A DNA stretch of 64,000 bases from a candidate division FCPU426 bacterium (GTDB lineage Bacteria; Oederibacteriota; Muellerivitia; Muellerivitales; Muellerivitaceae), in NCBI GenBank assembly GCA_027452205.1, contig DAIDGV010000003.1, positions 1 to 64,000 of the forward strand, given 5' to 3'. Below the pieces are notes generated by a model. That model saw only the letters and a program-made list of their open reading frames with translations. It was not told where the DNA came from and searched no databases. The position numbers and the translations under genes are program-made. Positions 38,191-61,965 of this stretch are shown piece by piece (position 1 is the stretch's first letter; each line of letters opens with the position of its first letter).

Positions 38191-38496
38191 ATGACATGGA
38201 ACATTTTTAGTCGTCTGTCTGAAAAAATAGGTCTGTGGCTCAATGAGCCGATTGGGGACGCGGGCATCGTGGCCGATTCGACCGCCACGGAACTGAAAAA
38301 GCCCCAAAGATCCTTTCAAGCCGCCCGGGCTTTACCCAAAGGCAAAAGGGGCCGGGGCAGCCGCCCGGAAACGACCAAGCCGATCCGTGAATTCCATCCC
38401 CGGGGCGCGGCGGGCCGCCGCGAGGTTCGCGGGCCTTCGGGCGCCCACAAGGCCGTCATGCCGCACAAGGGTAATCATCCTCGCTATTCTAAATAG
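38191..38496 (+). CDS. Small basic protein of unknown function
   Basis: ATG 38191 has AAAAGGAGTTAGTC upstream; 101 aa. The first third is mixed, while the rest is rich in Arg, Lys, Gly and Pro, ending SGAHKAVMPHKGNHPRYSK, which suggests nucleic-acid binding or disorder. No family is recognised. Its last 24 codons recur 757 bp downstream at 39179-39253 with mostly synonymous changes, on the far side of a toxin-antitoxin module. Confidence 0.75.
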   Translation: MTWNIFSRLSEKIGLWLNEPIGDAGIVADSTATELKKPQRSFQAARALPKGKRGRGSRPETTKPIREFHPRGAAGRREVRGPSGAHKAVMPHKGNHPRYSK

Positions 38497-38608: not shown

Positions 38609-38869
38609 TTATCGGTAGACCTCTCGGCGGTTGCCGATCTTGAAAATGACGATCTCTTTTTCATGGTTGTCGATCGTATAGATCACGCGCCAATCCCCTT
38701 GGCGAATGCGATATCTTTCGCCACCCTCCATTTTTTCGCAGCCATGGGGCCGTGGTTGCTGTTGAAGATTTTTGATCTTTTCGAGGATCTTGGTGGCGTC
38801 GTGGCGGGGGATGGCACGGATTTCTTTTTCAGCGCTTTTTTTCAGCGCGACTTTATAGGTGGCCGTCAC
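38609..38869 (-). CDS. RelE/ParE-superfamily toxin
   Basis: The 86-aa basic protein has the RelE fold pattern: YKVALKKSAEKEIRAIP at the N terminus, a helix pair with LEKIKNLQQQPRPHGCEKM, then YRIRQGDWRVIYTID and the closing IGNRREVYR. RelE-type toxins cleave mRNA in the ribosome; ParE types inhibit gyrase. The GDWRVIY and RREVY motifs favour the RelE mRNA interferase branch. It overlaps the upstream antitoxin gene by 17 bp. Confidence 0.92.
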   Translation of the reverse strand: MTATYKVALKKSAEKEIRAIPRHDATKILEKIKNLQQQPRPHGCEKMEGGERYRIRQGDWRVIYTIDNHEKEIVIFKIGNRREVYR

Positions 38870-39077
38870 GCTTTAAGTCTTTCAAGACGGATTCCAAGCT
38901 TCGAGCGGGTTCTTTCGCTCTCTTCTCGAATGCTTCATAGTCAGCGGCGTCTTCCCTAAGGGACAAACGAAGGGCTTCGTTGACCAAATAAGAAAGGCTT
39001 TTTTCGGTGTGCGCGGCTTTGATCTTGGCGGCTTTCAAGATCTTAGGATCTAAATAAAGTGTGGCTTTTGAGTTCAT
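38853..39077 (-). CDS. Ribbon-helix-helix antitoxin
   Basis: The 74-aa protein starts with a ribbon strand (KATLYLDPKILKAAKIKA) and a helix pair (SLSYLVNEALRLSL), the RHH DNA-binding fold, followed by a charged toxin-binding tail. It should neutralise the RelE-like toxin and repress the operon. Two abutting TGACGTCA palindromes lie just upstream and are the likely operator. The overlap with the toxin gene supports a genuine TA pair. Confidence 0.9.
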   Translation of the reverse strand: MNSKATLYLDPKILKAAKIKAAHTEKSLSYLVNEALRLSLREDAADYEAFEKRAKEPARSLESVLKDLKRDGHL

Positions 39078-39178: not shown

Positions 39179-39253
39179 GAGGTTCGCAGGCCTTCGGGCG
39201 CCCACAAGGCCGTCATGCCTCACAAGGGCAATCATCCCCGCTACCCCAAATAA
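39179..39253 (+). pseudogene. Relic: duplicated 3' end of the small basic protein gene
   Basis: 75 bp match 38422-38496 at 67 positions. They encode VRRPSGAHKAVMPHKGNH, then PRYPK and a TAA. An in-frame TGA lies 13 bp upstream, so only the tail remains. Most differences are synonymous, so this is an old paralogue's end rather than a fresh copy. Confidence 0.8.
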
Positions 39254-41476: not shown

Positions 41477-43171
41477 TTAAAACCCAAATGTCTTTATGAG
41501 TCTGGCGCCTTTGGTAGCCATATCAGCCCCTAAGGTCAATAAATCACCCTGGGGCTTCGGCGTGGGCGTCTGCTGCGAGTTCACCGGACGAGCGGCGGGA
41601 TTTGACTGCGTCTGGGCCGAAACTTCAGGTTGAGGCCCATTGTTTGAGTGTGCCGATTCCAAATGAGAATCGGCGTGCAAGGGCCCATTCATATTGCCCT
41701 TGGCATTGGGTGTGGGAGCTTGCGCAACGGTCGTGGGGACGGCTGTGGGTTCTAGCGTTGGTTCCGTTTTAGTAAGAACCGCTTTCTTCACAGGTTGCGA
41801 CGCCTCTGGAGTGGGGACCGGTGTGTTCACGACCGTTGGGTTGACATCGACCACACTAACGGGCTGTTGTGGTGTCGGCTGTGGAGTAGGGATGACAGGC
41901 GTAGGCGCGGGGGTGCTTGCCGGAACGATCTTCGTATAGACCAGATGGACCAACCCGCGTGTGCCATGCTCATGTACATACGAACCGCCGATAAACAGGC
42001 CGATCAAAAGGCCAATGATCGCCACCGCCTGGGCGAACTGGTAAACGCGAAAGAACTTTAACAAGCCCATCACGAGATGCCAGACGAACTTGATGGCCTT
42101 GAAGGTCCACTTCACGGTCAGCTTGGTCAGCCGGAAGCCGTTCTTAACCAGCCAGACCAGCCCATGCCAAAGGTTGTACCCGGCCAAGAGGCATACTTCG
42201 AACAGGTTCGGTCTTTCGCCCTTTTTGATCTTGGACCTGATCTTGGCGATGACCGATACCCCCGCGACGGCTTCATAAAGAGCGGTCTCAGCAGAGCCCA
42301 TCGCCTGCTGCTCACCCACCAGGTGAGCAGCGTGACTTGGCTGTGCCGATTCCTGAGGGGCTTTAGCCCCGGCAATAGGGGAATCGGCATGGAGCGCCGG
42401 GGTGGTACCCATTTCTGGTTTGGGTGAAATGGGTACACGCAAGGCTTGCTTCTCGGCTTGTGGCCTCGAAGCAGAGGCCTTGGGTGCCGTTACATGGGTA
42501 TGGGCCGGGTTGCCAGCCTTTAACGAGGCCACCAGGGCCTGCACCTGGGGCTGGGTCAGTTTACGGTCCAAGACCGTGGGTAAGGCCTTTTCGACCTCTA
42601 GGGGGTCGCCTAGGGTCACTAAAGCCTGGATGGGATTCTGGGTTATGGCCTTCTGGGGTCCAAGTTTTACGCAACTTGCGTAAAGAAGGTCCCGGGAAGC
42701 CTGGGTTAGACCGGCAGCTACCCGGAGGGCACGGGAAACCTGGTCTTGGGATACGCCAAATTCGGCGGCAATTGCCTCTTGGGTGGGATCGTCGGCTTCT
42801 TTGGACCGGTCTTCGATCTCTAAAACCCAGTCCAACCAGTACATATCGGTCTTTTGGTTGTCGATCCGGGCCTTCCTTCTGGCCACCTGGGGGGTGACAT
42901 CCCAGATCTGGCAGTTCAGGGTAGCTAGGCCAGCCTTTTGGGCGCCCGCGAAGCGGATATGCCCGCCGATAAGCTCGTATTCCACCCCTGCGCTGGTCGC
43001 CTTCTCTTCCGGGGTCAGGGGGCGAACCTTGACCGGGTCTTCTTGTCCAATGGCGGTCAATGAAGAGGCCATCAGGTCAATGGCCTCTTGGGTAATGACC
43101 CGCCGGGGCTGGTTCGGCATAGGGCGGATCTGGGCTAGGGGAATGGCCTGCACGACGATCGGGTTCGACAT
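41477..43171 (-). CDS. ParB-like protein with a membrane anchor and Pro/Thr-rich tail
   Basis: The 564-aa protein begins with a ParB N-terminal domain: IPLAQIRPMPNQPRR (9-24), a KVRPL strand, and GGHIRFAGAQKAG (69-81) in place of the usual GERRWRA box. A KorB/ParB-type HTH follows (IAAEFGVSQDQVSRALRVA, 134-152). After a Pro/Ala-rich linker (220-300) come amphipathic stretches and a definite TM segment (about 381-398), then a 160-residue Pro/Thr-rich tail (PTPQPTPQQP) that should be extracytoplasmic. I know no standard ParB with this layout. No ParA is visible nearby. The ATG has GAGGTGAC upstream. Confidence 0.85.
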   Translation of the reverse strand: MSNPIVVQAIPLAQIRPMPNQPRRVITQEAIDLMASSLTAIGQEDPVKVRPLTPEEKATSAGVEYELIGGHIRFAGAQKAGLATLNCQIWDVTPQVARRKARIDNQKTDMYWLDWVLEIEDRSKEADDPTQEAIAAEFGVSQDQVSRALRVAAGLTQASRDLLYASCVKLGPQKAITQNPIQALVTLGDPLEVEKALPTVLDRKLTQPQVQALVASLKAGNPAHTHVTAPKASASRPQAEKQALRVPISPKPEMGTTPALHADSPIAGAKAPQESAQPSHAAHLVGEQQAMGSAETALYEAVAGVSVIAKIRSKIKKGERPNLFEVCLLAGYNLWHGLVWLVKNGFRLTKLTVKWTFKAIKFVWHLVMGLLKFFRVYQFAQAVAIIGLLIGLFIGGSYVHEHGTRGLVHLVYTKIVPASTPAPTPVIPTPQPTPQQPVSVVDVNPTVVNTPVPTPEASQPVKKAVLTKTEPTLEPTAVPTTVAQAPTPNAKGNMNGPLHADSHLESAHSNNGPQPEVSAQTQSNPAARPVNSQQTPTPKPQGDLLTLGADMATKGARLIKTFGF

Positions 43172-43320
43172 AAGTCACCTCGGTGTAAAAGTTGAAAAAT
43201 ATCCAGTGTTTTTAATGGATGAGGGCCTGTTGGGCAAATTAACGGTTTGTTAACTTAGGGAAACCGTTTGAATTAGAGGGTGAAGGTCAAAACAGGAGAG
43301 TAGAATTTCTGGAGTGAAAG

Positions 43321-43674
43321 ATGGGGGGCGTCATGAACTTTCAAAACATACTGGTCCATACGGAAGAAAAGTTCCTCCGGGCGGGGTTGGTCTTGCGGAT
43401 CGAAATATTTGCCCGAACCGAGCAAAAAGATCGAAAGCATTCCTCAAATGAATTTGGCTTTTCAGGCGGCACCAAGCACCATTATTGCCGGGTCTATGAA
43501 GGGGCCCAGGGAAGCTGGACGGAGAAGTATTTCATCCCCGAGATCAACGACAAACTTCCGCGTTTGGATATTGGCTACAAGAATGACTATGACGGCCCCG
43601 GGATGGATTTCGCTCATTTGGATGAATATGCCATCGCCAAAAAGGTTTGGGAGTATTTTGGGATCAAGGATTGA
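43321..43674 (+). CDS. Hypothetical protein, unknown function
   Basis: The 117-aa product (GGAGTGAAAG before ATG; an in-frame ATG at 43333 is an alternative) is soluble, with aromatic-rich segments (HHYCRVYEGAQGSW and EYAIAKKVWEYFGIKD). No domain is recognised. Its last ten codons recur at 44625-44657 after the next two genes, with one sense change. The gene therefore borders a possible inserted cassette. Confidence 0.65.
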   Translation: MGGVMNFQNILVHTEEKFLRAGLVLRIEIFARTEQKDRKHSSNEFGFSGGTKHHYCRVYEGAQGSWTEKYFIPEINDKLPRLDIGYKNDYDGPGMDFAHLDEYAIAKKVWEYFGIKD

Positions 43675-43735
43675 TGGCCCGTAAATAAGATCGGTGGGTT
43701 TTTCTTGGCTTTTGGCGGTAAATCGGGCAGGCTTG

Positions 43736-43761
43736 ATTGTAGCTACACATGTAGCTACAAT
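43736..43761. promoter_or_regulatory. Operator-like palindrome upstream of the TA-like pair
   Basis: ATTGTAGCTACA and TGTAGCTACAAT flank a central CA: a 26-bp inverted repeat in which each half also contains the palindrome TGTAGCTACA. It lies 37 bp before the next ATG, as in autoregulated operons with an RHH protein. Confidence 0.7.
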
Positions 43762-43797
43762 ATGAATACGGTATGACTTGAGCGGAGCGGTTCATCA

Positions 43798-44094
43798 ATG
43801 GCGAACAGACCGGAGGAAGTAAAGGCCTGGACAGTTCTCGATACCCTTGTCGCGGATAAGGTTCAGGACTTAAGGTCGGCGCCGAGAGTCGGCCATCAAC
43901 TGAAGGATATTTACGAGGGTTTGTTGGATGCCTTGAAAACCTATCCTCCCGACCAGGGAAGGTTCAAAGTCCCGGTTCAGTTGGGGGATTGCACGTGGTT
44001 GGTCGAATCCGAGGATGGAAGGGTTCGGTTGAAGGCTTGTTACGAGGTTCGGTTTGAAACTTGCTTCGTTGAAGAGCTGATGTACAAAGCCTAA
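43798..44094 (+). CDS. Hypothetical protein, candidate partner of an RHH protein
   Basis: The 98-aa product has no signal and no recognised motif. It is mostly helical at the N terminus (KAWTVLDTLVADKVQDLRSA) with strands after residue 55 (GRFKVPVQLGDCTWLVESED). It is the first gene of a two-gene unit behind a strong palindrome and 20 bp ahead of an RHH-like gene, an arrangement typical of toxin-antitoxin pairs. Toxin activity is inference. Confidence 0.7.
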   Translation: MANRPEEVKAWTVLDTLVADKVQDLRSAPRVGHQLKDIYEGLLDALKTYPPDQGRFKVPVQLGDCTWLVESEDGRVRLKACYEVRFETCFVEELMYKA

Positions 44095-44114
44095 AACGCT
44101 TCAGGGAGTATGTC

Positions 44115-44612
44115 ATGAAAACGGTCCATAAGGCCAAGGTTGTCCATCTCATTTCCGGTAACAAAGAAGAGACGGTCCGTTTCCGGATCGACCCCATCAC
44201 TAAACAGCATTGGGGTGAGAGTTTTGAGCGTTTGGGAGTGAAGGATTTTTCTTCCTATGCCCGGCGCGCGGTCGAAAGGGCGATTCAACAGGACTTTCGG
44301 GCGGCCGACCCGAAGTGGCAGGCCTTTTTAGAAGCCTCGAAGGATCTGGCCATCAAATACCTGGGTTATGCCTTAGGGGATGAAAAAAAAGATTACTCTC
44401 GGCTCAAAGAGATCGAAGACCTGAAACTGGAATTGGGATCGAAAATGGCCCGGGAAAAAGGTTTGCGGTCGGAGGATGTTTCTCCCTTGCCGGGACAGGG
44501 AACAACTTTGAGCCATGTTGTCGTTCGTGAGAAACATACGCCCCATGGCGCTTATCGTTTCAAAAGACCAAAACTTAAGGCGGCCTATCGGACAGCCCCG
44601 AAAAAGAAGTGA
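44115..44612 (+). CDS. RHH-like DNA-binding protein with basic tail
   Basis: The 165-aa protein carries a ribbon-helix-helix-like segment at residues 20-57 (TVRFRIDPITKQHWGESF, then DFSSYARRAVERAI). A helical linker and a very basic C terminus (FKRPKLKAAYRTAPKKK) follow. RHH proteins bind palindromes as dimers; the repeat at 43736 is a natural target. It follows 20 bp after the unknown 98-aa gene. It is longer than most antitoxins, so a regulator of another sort is possible. Confidence 0.75.
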   Translation: MKTVHKAKVVHLISGNKEETVRFRIDPITKQHWGESFERLGVKDFSSYARRAVERAIQQDFRAADPKWQAFLEASKDLAIKYLGYALGDEKKDYSRLKEIEDLKLELGSKMAREKGLRSEDVSPLPGQGTTLSHVVVREKHTPHGAYRFKRPKLKAAYRTAPKKK

Positions 44613-58359: not shown

Positions 58360-61300
58360 TTACTTCTTGAATTCTTTCCACAACGACATCCAACGATCCG
58401 TCGAGATGGGTTGGGCAAACCCTTGCCGGCTGACCTTGCAAAGCCCCGCGACTTCCGAAGTTCTCACCAACTGATCCGGGTTTAACCCTGCGTCCACCCA
58501 ATCCGTCGAAACATGAACGATCTGCCCCTTAGCATCCACCATTTTGTAACCCCGGCTGTCTTGGTCGAAAGCGATGGCCTTGACCATGCTTCCATTAGGG
58601 ATCTCGCTCCCGATGGGTTCGCCCGAGTGGGTGTCCCATATTTCCCGGGTCTTATCTTTATAGACCACCAATAAGGCATTGCCCTGGGGGCCCAGGACCA
58701 TTTGCGAAACTTCGCTGGAATGTTTCATGGGGTCGCCGATGGGGTCGGCGGTTTGGGCATCCCAGAGATGACCGGTGCCGTCGGCGCCAAAGCTGATGAC
58801 GATCTTGCTGTCGGGTGTGGTCAGCAGGTTCCTCAACCCGGAATGTTTGAAAGAGGCCATTTGTTTGCCCGAGGAGGCGTCATAGATAAGCCCCGTACTG
58901 CCCGCGGCGACCAAAAGCCTTTGGCTGTCCGCGGTAAAGGCCAGGGATTTGGTCCATTGGTTCAGCTTCACTAAAGCGGGGCCCCCGGCGGCGGAAAAAA
59001 GACGCAAAGAACCTTTGTCGGTCACGACCGCGACTTGGCTGCCGTCGGGGCTGAGCTGGACCCGGGTGATAGGGTTGCCCAGCGGGACAGGATCACCCAA
59101 CGGTTCGCCGTTGGCGGGGTCGAAAAAGAGAAGCGTCTTGCCTTTGGTGCCCAGGACCAGTTTTTTGCCGTTCTCACTGAAAGACGCCGCCGTCAGGGTG
59201 CCTTGGGTCTTGAGGGTGACGCTTTTTTTAGCAGAAAGGAGGCAAAGCTTCGCGCCGCTTTTACTGAGCAGCAACAGTTCTTGATCGTTGGGGCTGAAGA
59301 GTGCGTTTTGAATATTGCCCGGCGCGGTCAGGACCCCGCCCTCGGGCCTGGCAGTGGTGGCGTTCCACAAGCAAGCCGTCTTGGCGCTATAGGTCAAAAG
59401 ATGTTTCGCGTCGCGGCTGAAAAGCCGGCGGGTCTGGCTTTTTTCATAGGCTTTGCGGCCCGCTTTTTTCCAGTTCAGTTCGGTAACGTCATCGGCGCGG
59501 GTGGTAAAGCTCCAGACCCGGGCGACACCGTCCTGGCTGGCGGTGACGAGGGTCTTGCCCGAGGGGCTGAAGGAAGCGCCGGTCACGATATCCCCCTGCC
59601 AGAAGGCGCGGCCGAGGGGTTTGCCGTTGTCCGTTTGCCAGACCTGGGCGGAGTGGTTGATGGTGCCGGCCATGAGCCGGCTGCCATCCGCGCTGAGGGC
59701 GAAGGCGGTCACCCGCCCGATGGTGTGGAATTTGATCGGCGAGGGATTGTGGCTTTTGACCCCATAAAGGCGGAGAAGCCCGCTGGTTTTGTCGTGCAGG
59801 ACCGAGGTGACCAACTGATGGCCGTTGGGGCTTAAGAAGGCTTTCGCCCCCAAACCATCCAGTGCCAGGGCGTTGCCGGTACGGCCCCCATCCCGGTTAT
59901 AAAAGCGTAAAACGCCGTCCCAGCCGGTGGCGGCGATCTTGTTGTCTTTATTGATGAAGAAAACATCAGGATGGTACCAATCGGGCGCGCCTTGGATGTT
60001 CAGGTGGATAGGATCGGATTGGGAAGAGCCGTTCTCGACCTCCCAGACATGGGCGGTGCCGTCTTTTGTGGCGGTGAGCAGGTATTTGCCGTCCTGGCTG
60101 AATTCGACCGAAACCACCCCCGGACCCGGGTCGATGGTGGCCTTGGAAGCTTCGCCCTTGCTGGGATTCCAAATGCGGACGGTGCCGTCTTTTGTGCCGG
60201 AGGCCAGTTTGCGGTCATCGGGGCTGAAGGCCAGGCAGTTAATTTGTCCGTTGGGTTCTTTGGCGCTGCTGACGGCCTTTTGATTGGAAACCTCGAAAAC
60301 CTTGATGTTGCCCTGGGCATCGCCGGTCGCCACCCGGCGTCCGTCGGCGTTGAAGGCCGCGGCGGTGTCCTTGCCCCACAGTTTCAAGGCGTGGCTGGTG
60401 TCGGTCTTGAGGGTCCAGAGGACGGCGCTGGAAGCCCCGGTCAGCAAAAGAACGGAACCGTTGCGGTTGAAAGCGATGGCTTGAAGGGGTTTCTGGTAGT
60501 TGAAGATGGCGGTCGGTACGGGGGGCATATACATGAAGGCGTTGCCCCGGGCCAGGAGGGAAGGAAAGATACGGTCGGCTTCGGCGAAATAAGCCGTGGC
60601 CGAGGCGTTGTCGCCGTTATCCAAGCATTCCTTGCCCCTTAATACATCGTTCGAGGCCAGGTCTTGCGCCTGGGCCTTTTGGCGCTCGACGACAATGAAG
60701 CCCGCGGCCAGGGAAATGACCAGGGCCGCCGCGACGGTAACGAGCACCGCCTTGTAGCGGTTCACGTATTTTCGAAGGACATAGACCTTATCTCCGGCTA
60801 AGGGACTGACGGGTTTTCTTTGCCAGCGGCGTTTGATGTCTTTCAAGACTTCGGTCACATCGTTATAGCGTTCGTCGGGGTTCACTTTCATGCACTTGGC
60901 CACGATGGCGGAAAGGTCTTTATCCACCCGGCCGTGGGTGAGGGTGAAAAGGTCGGGCACTTCGGTCGTTTCGATCGCCTTTCGGTAGATCTTGAGACGG
61001 GTCTCGAGGACCGGGGTCATTTCGAGGTCGAGTGCGATGTCGTCGTGGGGCGGGTGGCCGCTGAGCAGGTGATAGATGGTGCAACCAAGGGCATAAATAT
61101 CCCAGCGTATATCGGGCTGGCTGATGTGGTCGTGGTCCGTGGCGGTGGTCTGTTCGGGCGCCATGTAGAAAAGGCTGCCCAGCGCGCCGCCCGAATCGGT
61201 GAGGACCAAGGAATGGCCGAAATCCGCCACGCGCACGTGGCCTTCCTGGTCGAGGAGGACGTTGGCGGGTTTGAGGTCGCAATGAACGATCTCTTTGGCA

Positions 61301-61800
61301 TGGACGTAACTTAAAGCTTCGGCGATCTCCTGCATCCAAGTGGCGGCCTGGTAGAGGTCTTGGGGACTGACGACCCTGTTCTTTTTACTCTGGACGACAC
61401 TGTCCAGGGACCCTTCTTCGGCCAGGTCCATGACGTAATAGGGGATCTGGCCCCTTAAGTCCGCGTCGAGCAGGGAAATGATGTGGGGATGCTTGTCGAG
61501 GCGGATCATGCGGTCCGCTTCGCGCTGCAAAAGGTTCCAGTGCAGGATGCCCTTTTTGTGGAAGACCTTCACCGCGACCAGGCGCCGGGTGCGAAGCTGG
61601 ATGGCTTCCCAGACCTGGGCATAAGCCCCATTGCCGATGGAGCGGAGCATGAGATAACCGTCGAGTTTGGGCGCGTCGTCGTGCTGTTTCAGGCCCGCGA
61701 GGTCGGGATCCTGTTCGGCGGATCCCTGGGCCTTTTGTTCGGCCTCTGGACCGGAGACGGTGTGGAAGATATTCGGTTTTGGGTCGGCCGGGTCGGGCAT
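58360..61800 (-). CDS. Membrane Ser/Thr protein kinase with WD40-type propeller
   Basis: I use ATG 61800 (GAGGACCCC upstream); the frame opens at 61857. The 1146-aa protein has a Hanks-type kinase domain (about 28-300): IGNGAYAQV glycine loop, VAVKVFHKK lysine, VHCDLKPANV catalytic loop (HCD, a non-RD kinase), DFGHS and MAPEQ. A TM segment (about 350-372) leads to an extracytoplasmic part with two or more WD40-like propellers (blades such as KLASGTKDGTVRIWNPSKG, YLLTATKDGTAHVWEVENG). The family relays envelope signals by phosphorylation. It is convergent with the SBBP gene. Confidence 0.95.
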   Translation of the reverse strand: MPDPADPKPNIFHTVSGPEAEQKAQGSAEQDPDLAGLKQHDDAPKLDGYLMLRSIGNGAYAQVWEAIQLRTRRLVAVKVFHKKGILHWNLLQREADRMIRLDKHPHIISLLDADLRGQIPYYVMDLAEEGSLDSVVQSKKNRVVSPQDLYQAATWMQEIAEALSYVHAKEIVHCDLKPANVLLDQEGHVRVADFGHSLVLTDSGGALGSLFYMAPEQTTATDHDHISQPDIRWDIYALGCTIYHLLSGHPPHDDIALDLEMTPVLETRLKIYRKAIETTEVPDLFTLTHGRVDKDLSAIVAKCMKVNPDERYNDVTEVLKDIKRRWQRKPVSPLAGDKVYVLRKYVNRYKAVLVTVAAALVISLAAGFIVVERQKAQAQDLASNDVLRGKECLDNGDNASATAYFAEADRIFPSLLARGNAFMYMPPVPTAIFNYQKPLQAIAFNRNGSVLLLTGASSAVLWTLKTDTSHALKLWGKDTAAAFNADGRRVATGDAQGNIKVFEVSNQKAVSSAKEPNGQINCLAFSPDDRKLASGTKDGTVRIWNPSKGEASKATIDPGPGVVSVEFSQDGKYLLTATKDGTAHVWEVENGSSQSDPIHLNIQGAPDWYHPDVFFINKDNKIAATGWDGVLRFYNRDGGRTGNALALDGLGAKAFLSPNGHQLVTSVLHDKTSGLLRLYGVKSHNPSPIKFHTIGRVTAFALSADGSRLMAGTINHSAQVWQTDNGKPLGRAFWQGDIVTGASFSPSGKTLVTASQDGVARVWSFTTRADDVTELNWKKAGRKAYEKSQTRRLFSRDAKHLLTYSAKTACLWNATTARPEGGVLTAPGNIQNALFSPNDQELLLLSKSGAKLCLLSAKKSVTLKTQGTLTAASFSENGKKLVLGTKGKTLLFFDPANGEPLGDPVPLGNPITRVQLSPDGSQVAVVTDKGSLRLFSAAGGPALVKLNQWTKSLAFTADSQRLLVAAGSTGLIYDASSGKQMASFKHSGLRNLLTTPDSKIVISFGADGTGHLWDAQTADPIGDPMKHSSEVSQMVLGPQGNALLVVYKDKTREIWDTHSGEPIGSEIPNGSMVKAIAFDQDSRGYKMVDAKGQIVHVSTDWVDAGLNPDQLVRTSEVAGLCKVSRQGFAQPISTDRWMSLWKEFKK

Positions 61801-61965
61801 TGGGGTCCTCGGGAATGGTTCAAACGATCCGTAGGGGCCCATCTTAACACTAATCATTTTGAGGGTACCTGATCTTTGTTCCGAATGGGGATCGGTTACA
61901 CCCAGGCTCGGCGGGAACGGTCTTTGTTTTGGCGGTTTTAGGTGTCGAAATGATCGTTCAAGGAC

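Follow-up and report, generated by a model that had tools for sequence, protein, structure and literature searches.

A predicted membrane-anchored ParB-like protein and its gene

The window, i.e., the whole stretch of 64,000 nucleotides analyzed here (positions 1 to 64,000 of contig DAIDGV010000003.1 from a candidate division FCPU426 bacterium, assembly GCA_027452205.1), contains, on the minus strand, a single unbroken open reading frame (41477-43171, read 43171->41477). It encodes a protein of 564 amino acids that consists of a ParB-like/HTH head, a linker, a membrane module, a Pro/Thr-rich tail and a C-terminal helix. The initial annotation of this gene, which described a ParB N-terminal domain and an HTH followed by amphipathic stretches, a transmembrane (TM) helix and a Pro/Thr tail, is borne out by Pfam and TIGRFAM matches, an AlphaFold2 model, charge distribution and composition. 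The gene is further delineated by paralogues and by purifying selection on individual modules; the paralogues on contigs C9 and C10 share the same layout, which rules out a misassembly or a chimera of two genes.

The gene stands alone. Encoded at lower coordinates are FtsH (36207), a toxin pair of the ParE type (38609-39077) and a thioredoxin (39379); at higher coordinates are three small proteins that match no Pfam family (43321-44612) and an RDD/Sel1 membrane protein (45549). Paralogues of the pair of small genes at 43798-44612 are located near the family gene on contig C24, a recurrence that may be due to chance. As noted originally, there is no ParA nearby: the normal Soj-Spo0J pair of this genome, with LGRGL present in Spo0J beside Soj, is on a separate contig (C12), and neither ParA nor a partner operon was detected by family genes in the neighborhoods examined. 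Also encoded in the window are three ice-binding-like proteins (PF11999; 2709-3764, 4046-4873 and 29314-30048), in an organism that has a relative from palsa soil, and one protein that combines a protein kinase and a WD40 beta-propeller region (58360-61857).

Residues 1-222 of the protein (42506-43171; all protein features are on the minus strand) comprise the ParB NTP-binding fold and an HTH DNA-binding module. The ParB_N domain (PF02195) is recognized in residues 7-105 (E-value 8e-10; 39 bits against a cut-off of 26.3). The best curated-family models are those of Noc (TIGR04285; residues 7-222, E-value 5e-14) and of the ParB/Spo0J family (TIGR00180), both of which match below threshold, with 52 bits against a cut-off of 315 bits in the case of Noc. 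A sequence search of the PDB retrieved Caulobacter ParB, Thermus Spo0J and Noc over residues 7-220. In the AlphaFold2 model, built from 18 family sequences, residues 1-225 have pLDDT values mostly above 90, so that the ParB-CTPase fold and the HTH are confidently predicted; a Foldseek search of the PDB ranks Noc (7ng0/7nfu; E-value 6.5e-12) at the top, followed by ParB-CTPgammaS and Spo0J-CDP, with KorB lower. Sequence and fold agree with Noc/ParB throughout residues 5-222. The HTH core (residues 130-154; 42710-42784) is represented by a weak Pfam HTH_ParB match (0.088), two helices of the model (131-138 and 142-154) and a match to the DNA-binding domain of Noc (6y93).

The nucleotide pocket of this domain is partly conserved. 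By alignment, Box I (the C motif, as defined in PMC12704722) is the loop GQEDP (residues 42-46; 43034-43048), Box II (the P motif) is GGHIR (residues 69-73; 42953-42967), with His71 in place of E78 of Bacillus subtilis ParB (PMC8494293), and Box III, the equivalent of ENLQR, is DNQK (residues 104-107; 42851-42862), with Glu replaced by Asp and Asn retained. The original description of an altered GERR box, here G70-H-I-R73, over-read the change: GxxR, with its nucleotide-contacting Gly and Arg (G70 and R73 here), is kept in all 16 family members that possess the box, and it is GxxR that constitutes the Box II signature in a recent survey of the ParB-CTPase fold (PMC12704722). In B. subtilis ParB, the G77S and R80A substitutions interfere with CTP binding, whereas E78 and E111 are needed for hydrolysis; E78Q and E111Q are hydrolysis-defective, and replacement by His gave much the same picture as Gln in initial tests (PMC8494293). 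The window protein lacks the hydrolysis Glu of both the GERR and the ENLQR motifs (His71 and Asp104 of D104-N105). Because GxxR is kept but the catalytic Glu is replaced by His, this protein likely binds a nucleotide without normal hydrolysis; nucleotide binding is a prediction only, given that, in the same survey, nucleotide choice is described as not predictable from sequence and 17 of the 28 proteins tested bound no NTP (PMC12704722).

The head is followed by a disordered linker (residues 223-292; 42296-42505) of low pLDDT, with residues 232-292 disordered in the model, and there are no Pfam matches across residues 223-564, i.e., the linker, the membrane module and the tail. The membrane module starts with positively charged amphipathic helices (residues 293-373; 42053-42295; helices 293-316 and 323-373 in the model) that contain a conserved KIRSKIKKGERP motif and continues with the TM helix (residues 376-398; 41978-42046; helix 377-415 in the model), which is indicated by hydropathy, charge and the AlphaFold2 model; its span is thus somewhat longer than that first assigned (about 381-398). 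Hydropathy alone is modest evidence because the peak value for a 19-residue window (KD 2.09, residues 376-394) is reached by 150 of 2000 shuffles of the protein. A soluble helix in place of the TM segment is not favored, since both the hydrophobic peak, which lies at the equivalent point of the layout in the other members that were examined, and the charge pattern recur across the family. In the window protein, the 60 residues on the N-side of the TM helix include 11 positive and 2 negative charges, compared to 2 and 2 on the C-side. The homologues, this charge pattern and the structure prediction support a ParB/Noc-type module joined to a membrane anchor with a predicted N-in/C-out topology, in accord with the tie to the envelope originally proposed. 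The outer domains of sibling proteins, which resemble periplasmic VirB8/DotI/IcmL domains and PDZ, are consistent with the C-out orientation; some of the siblings in genome G001 may contain extra membrane helices.

Beyond the membrane is a predicted extracytoplasmic, mostly disordered tail (residues 399-543; 41543-41977; disorder at 416-543 in the model) in which Pro and Thr account for 32% of the residues compared to 17% in the whole protein. This extension was first described as 160 Pro/Thr-rich residues; the final part is a helix (41480-41542; low-confidence helix 544-561 in the model) with the end ...KGARLIKTFGF, and the ...LIKTFGF terminus has similar counterparts in siblings. The proposal of a DNA-binding clamp is borne out by half: the ParB/HTH head is there, but a closing-and-reopening clamp is doubtful because the membrane part takes the place of the usual C-terminal dimerization domain and the CTP-hydrolysis residues are changed.

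Distribution and mosaic evolution of the family

The genome to which the window belongs (2.9 Mb, 28 contigs, 99% complete) encodes four paralogues of the protein, on contigs C9, C10, C23 and C24, of which the C23 copy contains an interrupting stop. Further copies of this ParB-TM fusion are present in relatives from the same bacterial family, up to about ten in G001, and overall the copies are scattered and vary in number, with between about 3 and 10 in each genome. When 384 genomes were searched with a profile, 8 matched, namely, seven of one FCPU426 family and one other genome of the phylum, in which the matches are two cousins without a TM segment. A separate scan of genome contigs for the family retrieved only an FCPU426 genome from palsa soil. 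Searches of plasmids and phages matched the ParB part alone and the search of viral contigs returned zero matches; none of the viral, phage, plasmid or other genomes searched yielded a full-length relative. Genes for ParA, replication or integration are not seen near the window gene, and each copy is a solitary gene in chromosomal surroundings. The suggestion that the protein segregates an element thus finds no support, and neither the plasmid, phage and viral searches nor the neighborhood support a plasmid or prophage partition gene.

In the tree of ParB domains, the orphan proteins are united in a single clade, separate from Spo0J, with 98/98 support, with some of the inner placements on long branches. 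Three head subfamilies can be distinguished by Box II, I (SGQRR), II (AGENR, AGELR, AGERR) and III (GGHxR, including the window protein); genomes of one bacterial family have these subfamilies in common, and a cousin occurs in another family. Complete members retain the HTH, as do siblings that lack the CTPase domain. No fewer than three copies appear to be broken (G000 C23, G001 C36 and G001 C39), which implies that single copies may be dispensable. Two siblings contain two tandem ParB-like modules and no TM segment (L049 5853-7586 and L093 5704-7077).

Several features recur in the surroundings of the family genes. Fic-family proteins with a MarR-type C-terminus are encoded near two of them (L041 6690-7703 and L046 13251-14270). 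Direct repeats of about 70-240 bp with 85-96% identity flank single genes or toxin-antitoxin pairs, in the window (38422-38495 and 39179-39252) and in other loci (L048 1319-1494/2779-2954 and 8951-9060/9719-9828; L050 6833-6932/8482-8599/10020-10137; L055 2502-2737/3592-3827). Some of these repeats copy the end or the start of the adjacent gene, as if cassettes had entered with long target duplications.

The two halves of these proteins have had distinct evolutionary histories. The DNA-binding halves cluster across genera according to their old subfamilies, whereas the membrane and outer halves cluster by genus. Between genomes, members of the same head subfamily are similar in their N-terminal halves (mean 175 bits; all 37 pairs match) but hardly in their outer halves (mean 5 bits; no match for 33 of the 37 pairs). 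Within a genome, proteins with heads of different subfamilies show the opposite trend, with a mean of 36 bits for the N-terminal halves and 224 bits for the outer halves. For example, G004_C56 and G006_C143 share 79% in the head and 27% outside it, whereas G001_C39 and G001_C109 share 28% in the head and 87% in the membrane module. Under unrelated heads, the DNA of the outer parts can be as much as 95% identical across 200 bp (L052/L053) and 88% identical across 653 bp (L043/L047). Accordingly, the outer module differs among genera: a Pro/Thr tail in the genome analyzed here, where the C24 copy has almost no outer part, a PDZ-containing part in G001, and, in G002, G004, G006 and G007, a domain with the predicted fold of periplasmic VirB8/DotI/IcmL. 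The C-terminal ends of the Pro/Thr-tailed proteins and of the VirB8-like proteins from G004 and G006 are alike, each a helix that terminates with ...LGF, FGF or LGL. Analysis of paired codons indicates purifying selection on the head and the membrane module (dN/dS of about 0.3-0.45 in comparisons with paralogues) and relaxed selection on the fast-evolving linker, in which there was a recent exchange with the C23 copy. Outer halves that evolve in concert, combined with old, diversified heads, are expected if the paralogues of a cell share an envelope partner and differ in their DNA sites.

Candidate DNA sites and iteron arrays

No canonical parS site was found in the genome within 2 mismatches. 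An inverted repeat, AACGGTTT-N12-AAACCGTT (43241-43268), located 69 bp upstream of the start codon of the window gene and unique in the genome, is a weak operator candidate that could be due to chance. A block of about 130 bp upstream of the C9, C10 and C23 genes was considered as an operator and rejected: there are 7 copies in the genome, some beside unrelated genes, and the block is absent at the window gene. Occurrences of this block are at L038 8804-8983, L039 2438-2619 and L040 9376-9506, 12350-12467 and 14275-14348.

Further candidate sites are present in a single genome, G001. In four siblings from this genome (C31, C82, C13 and C54), the CTPase fold is lost, with no remnant found upstream, and the HTH, membrane and PDZ-type outer parts are kept. 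Directly upstream of each of these genes, within a few hundred bases of the start, is a private tandem array with a 21-22 bp period, all four different: CCATAGAC spaced by 22 bp, GTAGACG in 11 units with a mean spacing of 21.3 bp, CCGGAAAAG spaced by 21 bp and GTTGGCAT spaced by about 22 bp, with a double period of 42-44 bp. The spacing varies from 20 to 22 and most frames contain stops, so the arrays do not reflect repeated coding sequence; the spacing is most naturally understood as two helical turns. Arrays of at least 3 such units are found upstream of none of the 21 CTPase-bearing genes, and the G001 loci examined contain no arrays except beside a CTPase-less gene or where the locus was picked for its array, so that such arrays are not a background feature of these loci. 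Given that they come from one genome and probably one lineage, the four cases are not independent events. The GGTAGACG array is also found at two intergenic sites that have no family gene, much as dispersed binding sites would be. Intergenic 21/22 bp arrays of the sibling types, without a family gene, are at L105 6746-6985, L106 7401-7593 and L107 1-71 of G001, and in L105 another 21-bp array precedes a gene for a HATPase/DUF4325 protein.

Relationship to known systems and possible function

Noc of Bacillus and Geobacillus (7ng0, 7nfu; PMC8429893, PMC4331003) resembles the window protein in the ParB-CTPase fold and HTH, in the orphan status of the gene without a ParA-binding motif and in the combination of DNA binding with membrane association. 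However, Noc is attached peripherally by a short amphipathic helix at the N-terminus, presumably released through CTP, and dimerizes by means of a C-terminal domain, whereas in the window protein this domain is replaced by an integral TM segment and the outer part, and the hydrolysis Glu is a His. The Noc-type N-terminal helix is absent in the model of the window protein, which begins with a strand (6-11). With ParB/Spo0J (6sdk, 7bnr, 1vz0), the protein shares the fold of residues 5-222, GxxR and the Asn of the phosphate motif; it differs in the lack of ParA and of a C-terminal dimer domain, the absence of a detectable parS and its placement in the separate clade (98/98), and its N-terminus (MSNPIVVQAIPL) does not contain the ParA-binding motif LG-R/K-GL. 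Since these defining features of Noc and ParB were looked for and are not seen, we classify the protein as neither, but as a variant of the orphan ParB-CTPase fold proteins. Like the orphan fusions described in PMC12704722, the family combines an orphan ParB fold with lineage-specific domains; the fusions named in the main text of that survey include HNH, methyltransferase, CBS, ASCH and similar domains, and in this main text the word 'transmembrane' does not appear and none of the named fusions has a TM, VirB8-like or PDZ part.

The siblings from G002, G004, G006 and G007 share with VirB8/DotI/IcmL of type IV secretion (5cnl, 3wz4), in addition to the single TM segment, the predicted fold of the outer module; such a domain is absent in the window protein. 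Unlike the secretion components, these siblings carry a fused ParB head, and no secretion genes are recognized in the neighborhoods examined, with Pfam covering a minority of the neighbors; the link to conjugation or type IV secretion that the domain suggests finds no support there. The predicted topology, with a cytoplasmic DNA-binding head, one TM segment and an outer part, is reminiscent of ToxR/CadC, but the head is of the ParB type rather than an OmpR-type winged helix (Trans_reg_C is absent among the Pfam matches of the window protein) and the outer parts are homogeneous within a genome.

Overall, we favor DNA anchoring as the role of the window protein. The reading to which we tentatively give the best, if not quite even, chance is that it belongs to a Noc-like family of integral membrane, orphan ParB-like proteins, each of which would hold chosen sites of the chromosome at the envelope. 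Fold, HTH, TM helix, predicted topology, paralogy, mosaicism and purifying selection are computed results; the DNA site, nucleotide binding, the envelope partner and tethering are inferred from them. The ParB/HTH head would bind a paralogue-specific DNA site, and the flexible linker would join the head to the amphipathic and TM helices, so that the head is held on the inner membrane. The outer part, i.e., the Pro/Thr spacer with a short terminal helix in this protein and the VirB8/DotI-like or PDZ domain in other genera, would dock on an envelope partner common to the paralogues of one genome. A nucleotide is probably bound and probably not hydrolyzed. In the CTPase-less members, tandem iteron arrays, rather than clamp spreading, could serve to load many copies at a single site. 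Concerted anchors and diversified heads agree with a single structure to which several sites are fastened. The more elaborate version of this scheme, an attachment system in which several integral ParB-like proteins with different DNA addresses and a common outer anchor gather loci at one envelope structure, is conceivable but has to be regarded with some reserve. Several observations run against tethering: canonical parS is absent and a single weak inverted repeat is the one candidate site at the window gene; the arrays, known from one genome, immediately precede the start codons of the sibling genes themselves, as would also suit autoregulation; the canonical dimerization domain is missing, so that a closed clamp is not assured; and the broken copies suggest that single copies may be dispensable. 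Furthermore, Noc fastens loci to the envelope transiently, and a synthetic TM-Noc, stably membrane-bound in B. subtilis, did not restore function and yielded broken and bisected chromosomes (PMC4331003); permanent tethering should, therefore, require some form of relief, which is not seen in this family.

The strongest competing explanation, which takes up the envelope sensing originally suggested and which we consider less likely but far from negligible, is that these proteins are transmembrane regulators similar to ToxR/CadC with a ParB-type head, in which the outer domain senses the envelope and the head controls its own and a few other genes. A shared sensor with separate regulons would generate the same mosaic pattern, so that the probability of this alternative is sizeable. 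It agrees with the N-in/C-out layout, with the solitary genes, with the position of the array in three siblings, downstream of a promoter-like motif and ahead of the start codon, a usual place for autoregulation, and with the regulation of transcription by the ParB relatives KorB and VirB (PMC11790492, PMC10770331). However, the outer parts are not diverse within a genome, the disordered Pro/Thr tail, or almost nothing in the case of C24, would make a poor sensor, the two extra copies of one array are intergenic and not close to a start codon, and there is no adjacent target operon.

It is improbable that the genes are selfish or accessory single-gene cassettes, each with its own operator or centromere, that spread between intergenic hot spots and ensure their inheritance by membrane attachment. 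The scattered distribution and varying copy number, the toxin-antitoxin and Fic genes and long direct repeats in the neighborhoods, and the broken copies are all compatible with this possibility, but no gene-specific recombinase or terminal repeats are seen, the plasmids, phages and viral contigs searched contain no homologue beyond the ParB part, the subfamilies are common to one bacterial family with a cousin in another, and the genes evolve under purifying selection. Least probable is a DNA-free scaffold in which the ParB fold serves purely to bind proteins and links a cytoplasmic partner with the envelope. PadC, which binds CTP without hydrolysis and acts as a scaffold, is the model for this reading (PMC12704722, PMC8494293): the loss of the hydrolysis residues is in line with such a role, but the HTH is retained in the complete members and even in the CTPase-less siblings, and the latter are accompanied by private DNA arrays.

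If tethering is indeed the function, the family bears on the old question of whether there are dedicated integral proteins that fasten particular chromosomal loci to the envelope. Considering that the synthetic TM-Noc was non-functional and damaged the chromosome in B. subtilis, a natural TM-ParB family should come as a surprise to specialists, and its multiple copies suggest that stable attachment has become feasible in this lineage. From the crossed evolution of heads and anchors, one would predict that the paralogues of a genome bind different DNA sites and one envelope partner, and the private iteron arrays of the siblings provide ready test sites for binding assays.
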